A DNA stretch of 37,635 bases from Campylobacterota bacterium (GTDB taxonomy: Bacteria; Campylobacterota; Campylobacteria; Campylobacterales; JAJVLF01). The stretch lies in assembly GCA_029255845.1 (NCBI GenBank), contig JAJVLF010000016.1, forward strand, positions 1 to 37,635. Direction: 5' to 3'. A model generated the notes under the pieces. The model worked only from the letters and a program-made list of their open reading frames with translations. It did no database searches and was not told the DNA's origin. Below are positions 36,746 to 37,635 of this stretch, piece after piece. The number at the start of each line of letters is the position of its first letter. Position 1 is the stretch's first letter. A program made the translations under genes and the position numbers.

Positions 36746-36982
36746 AGACTCTCCTATTTTTATATTAAAAAACATTGAAATTATATTATCTTATCCTTGA
36801 TAAAATATTAAAATATATAACTTAAATTAAAAAATACTTTGAATATTATGCTTATTGATTAAATTTAAATTTGTGTTCTTAGAGGTTCCTTTAATTTTAA
36901 AGATTACTATAATTATAAGTTAGTGGAATGAAGCTAGATAAATAATATATAAAATCAATATTTTTATTTGCATTTTAAATAT

Positions 36983-37051
36983 TCATTTTTTTATGCAAGA
37001 TTGCTTAAATCTTGCTAGAAAACGAAGCAAAAAACCACTCTTTCGCTTCCT
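36983..37051. repeat. Right arm of window-flanking inverted repeat; contains perfect hairpin GCAAGATT-gctta-AATCTTGC (36995-37015)
   Basis: Reverse complement matches 2-70 with about 2 mismatches. Confidence 0.93.
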
Positions 37052-37121
37052 AGACCCCTTCGTGGCAAACCTTAATTATGTCCTAAAGCCTAAAAATTGC
37101 AAACTCGCTCAGTCACTCAAA

Positions 37122-37162
37122 TGTCCGATTTTCTGGACAGCTTTAAGACATATTCTTAAGCT
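37122..37162. repeat. Two adjacent hairpins: TGTCC..GGACA and AGCTT(T)AAGA..TCTTAAGCT
   Basis: Stems read directly at 37122-37126/37135-37139 and 37139-37148/37154-37162 (one bulged T). Confidence 0.5.
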
Positions 37163-37209
37163 TGTTTATAGGCAGAGGGCGGATAAGGATTTAATAGTTT
37201 AAAATACAG

Positions 37210-37231
37210 ACTACAAGCTAAGGCTTGTAGT
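37210..37231. repeat. REP-like hairpin ACTACAAGC-taag-GCTTGTAGT
   Basis: Perfect 9-bp stem with 4-nt loop, next to the transposase remnant. Confidence 0.65.
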
Positions 37232-37287
37232 ATGGAGTATGTAGGCTTTAGTGATGAAATTATATTTTATCGAAGTAGGGTAAGTTT

Positions 37288-37470
37288 TTAGTAAATAGTA
37301 AATCTCTGTCCCGCATTTTTTAAGATGTCTTCTTTTTGTAGATATTTTAAACTATTAAAAATTATATTTGTTGTTTCAACTCTTGTGAATATTGGTATCC
37401 AGTTTAATATAGTGCAAGTTATGAAGTGTGGTTGTGTTGGTTCTTGTATTTTGTATCTTGTTCTTCCCAT
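37288..37470 (-). pseudogene. Truncated Y1/IS200-like (REP-associated tyrosine) transposase N-terminus
   Basis: MGRTRYKIQEPTQPHFITCTILNWIPIFTRVETTNIIFNSLKYLQKEDILK resembles RAYT/Y1_Tnp N-termini; stops before any HUH motif or catalytic Tyr. Confidence 0.7.
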
Positions 37471-37541
37471 TTGGGATTATATTATAGTTTTCTTTATTGT
37501 TTTGGAGTTAGGGGTGTTTTTGTTTTACTTTTGTTTGTATG

Positions 37542-37569
37542 CATTCCAAAGCTGGAGCTTTGGAACGAG
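37542..37569 (+). repeat. REP-like element gcaTTCCAAAGCT-gg-AGCTTTGGAAcgag
   Basis: Perfect 10-bp inverted repeat (37544-37553/37556-37565) with GCA...CGAG flanks. Confidence 0.8.
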
Positions 37570-37635
37570 AGATATACCTAAAGTTAATAAAGATTTAGAA
37601 AAGTTATTTAATATAATGGGGTTTGTAATGCCAAA

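Follow-up and report, generated by a model that had tools for sequence, protein, structure and literature searches.

Close to the right-hand end of a Campylobacterota contig (JAJVLF010000016.1, the whole 37,635 nucleotides of which are referred to here as the window) lies a hairpin-rich block of DNA. The original prediction, made from the sequence alone, placed it at 36983-37232 beside a transposase remnant and considered that it could be a MITE-like element, a REP cluster or a structured RNA. The locus raises the question of what kind of element this is, how far it extends and whether it is peculiar to the genome in which it was found.

A dispersed repeat in the source genome

A BLAST search of the source genome with positions 36900-37300 returned 33 matches to the block (best non-self E 1.5e-127), approximately 13 of which cover nearly the full length with 80-90% identity. 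Alignment of the copies showed that the predicted interval marks a real block but is too short, the true extent of the repeat body being approximately 36953-37272 with 37273-37321 added in some copies. The body has a sharp end at the motif TTTTRTCG (37272), beyond which the copies carry differing tails, of at least two unrelated kinds, and its left end is a variable A/T palindrome (36953-37022). Truncated copies, alternative tails and mosaic flanks are numerous, and the ends of the window copy are themselves mosaic. The repeat is present at both ends of the contig, as the window copy and as a fragment at 2-70, which is to be expected where a repeat halts assembly. The left palindrome, AAGATTTTTATTTGCAT..ATGCAAATAAAAATCTT, was also found by itself (loci L026 and L030), indicating that two or more repeats make up the mosaic unit of this genome. 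Other repeat families of the same genome adjoin copies of the element, namely the hairpins GGAACCTCTATT..AATAGAGGTTCC, TAGGGTCAGGTAACGACCCACCACC and TTCCACCTT..AAGGTGGAA (flanks of L017, L024, L029 and L020).

An open frame of 69 aa is present at 36993-37202, as had been described. In each of the ten other copies compared, a stop interrupts the homologous frame after 12-50 codons, so that none keeps it; this bears out the earlier suspicion that the frame is a by-product of the repeat, and as it also lacks a Pfam match a protein-coding gene was rejected. The repeat is thus dispersed, shorter than 500 bp and without coding capacity, as is a MITE. A Pfam scan of the block and of the flanking frames gave no match even at E up to 1, so that the transposase remnant said to lie beside the block is not detectable in either.

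A core hairpin common to three phyla

Exact-pattern searches with the window sequence found nothing outside the source genome, such patterns being too specific. An alignment of 18 copies from the source genome (A4) contained 24 cells with double-sided changes compared with 8.4 +/- 2.1 after shuffling, most of the within-genome covariation being supplied by the hairpin at 37207-37234 of the A4 consensus fold. A covariance model of the body (R1) matched other Campylobacterales mostly by the central hairpin alone. In these matches the central hairpin sits within a larger element of the same layout, consisting of an A/T hairpin, an A-rich linker and a double-stem hairpin with the loop AACTCGCTTCGCTCAAACA. 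A pattern combining this loop with the 3' internal loop collected 89 stretches from Bacillota (Sporomusa, Pelosinus, Clostridium akagii, Peptoniphilus, Anaerococcus, Tepidibacter and others), Bacteroidota (Flammeovirga, Gramella and Bacteroidales) and Campylobacterota. The terminal hairpin of Flammeovirga, CTTCATTTTTT..AAAAAACGAAGCAAAAAA, resembles that of the window.

A second covariance model (R2) was built from an alignment (A7) of 33 hairpins from Bacillota, Bacteroidota and other Campylobacterota, none of which came from the source genome. Double-sided changes occur in 18 of the 25 pairs of A7 and in 193 cells (71.8 +/- 7.3 when shuffled), with a covariation score of 0.540 compared with 0.187 in the shuffles. 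Run on the source genome, R2 gave 13 matches, every one of which had already been found by BLAST or R1. The window copy was matched at full length (37072-37156, minus strand, 46.8 bits, E 1.5e-6), and the best copy in the genome scored 62.9 bits. In an alignment of 128 distinct R2 matches fitted to the model (A8), 22 of the 25 pairs show double-sided changes, with 917 such cells as against 313 +/- 16 after shuffling and no more than 331 in slid controls. The outer and inner stems covary across the family and the apical and internal loops are conserved, although the window copy has a degenerate apical loop. Compensatory changes among the copies, the signal on which the original prediction had proposed to decide, therefore lie well above both kinds of control. 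The core is common to Campylobacterota, Bacillota and Bacteroidota, and the membership of the window core in this cross-phylum family is well supported.

Fold and strand of the window copy

All four of the stem-loops first described are present in the window: GCAAGATT/AATCTTGC (36995-37002/37008-37015), TGTCC/GGACA (37122-37126/37135-37139), AGCTTTAAGA/TCTTAAGCT (37139-37148/37154-37162) and ACTACAAGC/GCTTGTAGT (37210-37218/37223-37231). The second and third, however, share bases with the conserved inner and outer stems and compete with these longer cross-phylum pairings; they are probably alternatives, and probably not the functional hairpins.

Both strands fold with better energy than their dinucleotide shuffles (z -2.87 and -2.80), and RNAalifold on the plus strand also finds covariation. 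The strand was assigned from mismatch balance, since a folded strand tolerates G.U pairs and the mirror-image A.C is not tolerated. With pairs predicted from both strands alike, the copies in the source genome contain 36 A.C and 8 G.T cells on the plus strand, equivalent to 36 G.U and 8 A.C on the minus strand. The cross-phylum set shows 26 G.T and 12 A.C cells on the minus strand, and the stems of the larger set from outside the source genome show 161 G.T and 13 A.C cells on the functional strand, many of the 161 stemming from one semi-conserved R.U pair. This test rests partly on alignments fitted to the model. Together with the R2 match, the balance shows that it is the minus strand of the window that folds, and the plus strand, originally taken as the structured one, was rejected. 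The resulting features are collected in Table 1.

Table 1. Features of the repeat in the window, listed with the evidence for each.
Feature	Position	Strand	Evidence or remarks
Repeat unit of near-full-length copies in the source genome	36953-37272	-	5' end 37272, 3' end near 36953; BLAST copies and alignment, R1 matches
Alternative end piece ('tail A')	37273-37321	-	In part of the copies; different tail in others
Lineage-specific 5' domain	37157-37272	-	Missing in Arcobacter-type relatives; alignments
9-bp hairpin with TTAG loop, terminator-like, then CTGTATTTTA	37210-37231	-	Strongest covariation within the genome
Conserved core hairpin, cross-phylum family	37072-37156	-	Full-length R2 match, 46.8 bits; covariation on A7 and A8
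Core outer stem, 5' arm	37140-37151	-	Pairs with 37078-37089; sequence and helix support in alignments
Core inner stem, 5' arm	37126-37132	-	Pairs with 37093-37099; covaries across phyla
Apical loop region, family consensus CTGTYTGAGCGNAGCGAGTT	37100-37125	-	Degenerate in the window copy
Core inner stem, 3' arm	37093-37099	-	Covaries across phyla
Core outer stem, 3' arm	37078-37089	-	Sequence and helix support in alignments
Terminator-like hairpin GAAGC..GCTTC, then GTTTTC	37024-37049	-	GAAGY/RCTTC variation in alignment
A/T-rich 3'-terminal hairpin	36983-37022	-	Relatives alike in position and composition (CTTCATTTTTT..AAAAAACGAAGCAAAAAA in Flammeovirga)
Outer arm of terminal palindrome, AAGATTTTTATTTGCAT type	36953-36982	-	Differs among copies
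Second, truncated repeat copy at left contig end	2-70	+	Plus-strand query matches minus; folded strand would be plus

Distribution and probable movement

R2 matches were found in at least 56 of 299 sampled Campylobacterales genomes and at least 11 of 198 Bacteroidota genomes, both figures being lower bounds on account of strict filters. Among genomes chosen as carriers of the element, the number of copies ranges from one in Pelosinus through 10-18 in several genomes and 44 in another to 111 in a Tepidibacter MAG and at least 150, the scoring cap, in Flammeovirga sp. OC4. The element is not confined to the source genome. Copies are arranged in inverted pairs and in tandem groups 300-450 bp apart without genes between them. 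A Sporomusa copy gave two plasmid matches and no match in a phage search; a plasmid search with the window element gave no match. On these results carriage by a phage or plasmid was set aside.

In Arcobacter-type genomes the unit is approximately 187 bp long, sharply bounded and present at different sites in different species. In two such species a copy is 98.9% identical with different neighbouring genes, whereas a nearby gene is only 91% identical, which indicates recent movement or conversion. The ends of the unit (GTGATGCTT../..AAAATGCTCAC) are inverted only in part, no target-site duplication was seen by eye at these copies, and no Y1 transposase genes flanked by intact copies of the element were found; one genome (G158) has eight R2 matches and no Y1 gene. 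From these sequences we infer that the dispersal of the element reflects mobility.

Several copies elsewhere lie in settings of their own. At L214 (G002:C37, 3113-11383) a reverse transcriptase and a variable-protein gene, which look like a diversity-generating retroelement, are enclosed by four copies, and a 130-aa gene has been duplicated along with a copy of the element. In Arcobacter-type genomes (L058, L059 and L162) a variable gene spot between two conserved genes, containing a toxin-antitoxin-like pair, a DUF2971-like gene or an unknown gene, has the element at the stop-codon junction. A further copy (L071, 3893-3975) lies approximately 0.4 kb from a 5S rRNA gene at a contig end.

Position relative to genes

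None of the R2 matches analysed lies inside a long ORF (ORFs were called with a simple script, and some of the genomes sampled are related to one another). In 70 of 95 cases the gene upstream runs in the same sense as the folded strand; where the element lies between two genes of equal sense, it is sense to them in 38 cases and antisense in 14. Both counts are sums over two groups. Among 26 Campylobacterales cores, 12 start 22-50 nt past a stop codon, and in Arcobacter-type genomes the element often begins 0-10 nt after the stop. There is thus a placement bias, with the element lying sense to and downstream of a gene.

The window copy is in an atypical place, upstream of petABC. It lies 174 bp upstream of petA, which is downstream of it on the minus strand, and it does not follow a stop codon but adjoins an ORF candidate of opposite sense that starts at approximately 37324 and runs off the contig. 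No orientation bias was found among the copies of the source genome, in which the element may simply be tolerated in gaps. Two terminator-like sites (a G+C-containing hairpin followed by a U-tract) are predicted between 36700 and 37635 as against 0.4 expected, both on the minus strand and both within the element. A promoter-like site lies on the minus strand just upstream of the element (37389-37361), seven such sites having been found where 5.0 are expected, which is not significant.

The neighbouring plus-strand frame (37324-37635) would encode 103 aa from its ATG, is hydrophobic and has no Pfam match; it may be the start of a real membrane protein or a product of chance. In frame with an ORF candidate, and separate from the element, lies a perfect palindrome, GCATTCCAAAGCTGGAGCTTTGGAACGAGAG (37536-37573). 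Matches of 32-37 nt to this palindrome in four other Campylobacterales families (L031, L032, L033 and L036) mark it as another widespread repeat.

Relation to known repeats

To our knowledge, known small mobile sequences are each confined to one genus or family. No family in Rfam 15 matches the element above threshold, a dianthovirus element being dismissed at 23.8 bits against a cut-off of 80, and a motif-based search of open papers found no paper on it. Bacterial MITEs and other small mobile sequences include ERIC/IRU, RU, Correia/NEMIS, RUP and QMITE (PMC2229807, PMC10969869). Like these, the element is of 100-500 bp, A/T-rich, intergenic, dispersed, without a transposase and able to fold as RNA, and for some MITEs a terminator function has likewise been proposed (SPRITE). 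In contrast to MITEs, convincing terminal inverted repeats were not seen, target duplications were not found by eye, and neither the scan of the window flanks nor that of Y1 genes pointed to a parent IS; moreover its core, with conserved sequence and structure, spans three phyla.

GTAG/CGTC REPs and BIMEs (PMC3733652) resemble the element in being intergenic palindromes in inverted or tandem clusters, plausibly transcribed and present in several phyla. REPs, however, are 20-40 bp long with a 4-nt tag and a RAYT transposase (GTAG), whereas the element measures 190-370 bp, its A7 consensus has no terminal tag and no RAYT is linked to it. A GTAG/CGTC REP was rejected on the first two grounds and a REP/RAYT system on the lack of linked Y1 genes. 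The part of the original prediction that survives is a dispersed repeat with covarying structure; the REP identity does not. Integron attC sites are also imperfect, strand-specific hairpins placed right after stop codons, but the consensus of the element lacks the RYYYAAC/GTTRRRY core pair (by inspection, GTTAARA is without a partner AAC), and as no genes separate the tandem copies integron-like cassette arrays were likewise rejected. Intrinsic terminators share with the element a hairpin and U-rich tail after a gene, on the sense strand; the element is much larger, with near-identical repeated copies and conserved internal and apical loops.

Also similar are bcr1 and the families of stem-loops published by Cozzuto et al. 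(PMC2267715), which are multi-copy, 70-300 bp long, structured and intergenic but were described species by species. Some of them, for example Clop-1 and Clot-1, might be members of the family, and the element may be hidden among these or other unnamed published families (PMC2267715, PMC8040213).

A mobile end for transcripts?

The reading that we prefer, with a probability of about 0.5, is that the element is a non-autonomous mobile RNA hairpin that serves as the structured 3' end of transcripts or as a terminator. A copy downstream of a gene would be transcribed as part of the 3' untranslated region, where the long imperfect hairpin, with its conserved asymmetric internal loop (GUUAAR opposite UA), GNA-type apical loop and U-rich tail containing the A/T hairpin, would end transcription and/or protect the 3' end of the mRNA. 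The element would spread as a non-autonomous mobile piece and accumulate in gene-free gaps, often in tandem or in inverted pairs. We infer transcription of the element and an effect on termination, which is plausible, or on mRNA protection. Against a role at 3' ends, most of the A/T stems would make weak intrinsic terminators of the classical type, a stem is not in every case followed immediately by the U-tract, and neither the position of the window copy nor the orientation of the copies in its genome conforms.

It is possible, though we lean away from it, that the element acts at the level of DNA, its folded single strand being acted on by a transposase or recombinase, in the manner of REP/RAYT and attC, with any effect of the RNA secondary. 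The near-identical, sharply bounded copies at different sites among Arcobacter-type species and the BIME-like inverted and tandem clusters are in agreement with this, and strand-specific tolerance of G.T fits single-stranded DNA equally well. However, no Y1 gene was found flanked by intact pairs of the element, the genome with eight R2 matches has no Y1 gene, the element has no GTAG/CGTC tag, and a strong sense bias downstream of genes is not required of a DNA substrate.

A stand-alone, trans-acting small RNA, or a binding platform for a single protein, whose position after genes merely marks tolerated sites of insertion, appears distinctly unlikely. The conserved internal loop and apical motif exceed the needs of a terminator and the promoter-like site upstream of the window copy would suit such a gene, but 150 or more copies in some genomes and copies in tandem would be unusual for one. 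A decayed and functionless lineage-specific MITE of an ordinary IS, its structure being palindromic remains, is very improbable: the truncated copies, alternative tails and mosaic flanks of the source genome would suit it, but the lack of transposase relics in the block and its flanks (Pfam) does not, and the R2 matches and the covariation of the 128 matches largely refute it, as decay cannot have produced the hundreds of compensatory changes and the conserved unpaired loop of a core that spans phyla.

A bolder reading, which we hold to be unlikely, is that at least three phyla contain a class of mobile RNA element as yet without a name, which a host protein of wide distribution both moves and employs as a signal for 3' ends. 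Such a protein would recognise, in folded RNA or single-stranded DNA, the GUUAAR/UA internal loop, which is repeated in the Arcobacter-type copies, and the GCGNAGC apical hairpin. The element would then work as a transcript end that is portable and spreads by itself.

Stem-loop repeats of this dispersed kind are usually curiosities of a single genus. The core described here, whose loops are conserved and whose stems show compensating changes, is present in anything from one to at least 150 copies per genome in three phyla and has no Rfam family. The R2 model opens its transcription, termination and mobility to tests in culturable Sporomusa, Flammeovirga and Arcobacter-type hosts. If the placement at gene ends reflects function, the element would be a spreading 3'-end signal that reshapes the ends of transcripts in many genomes.
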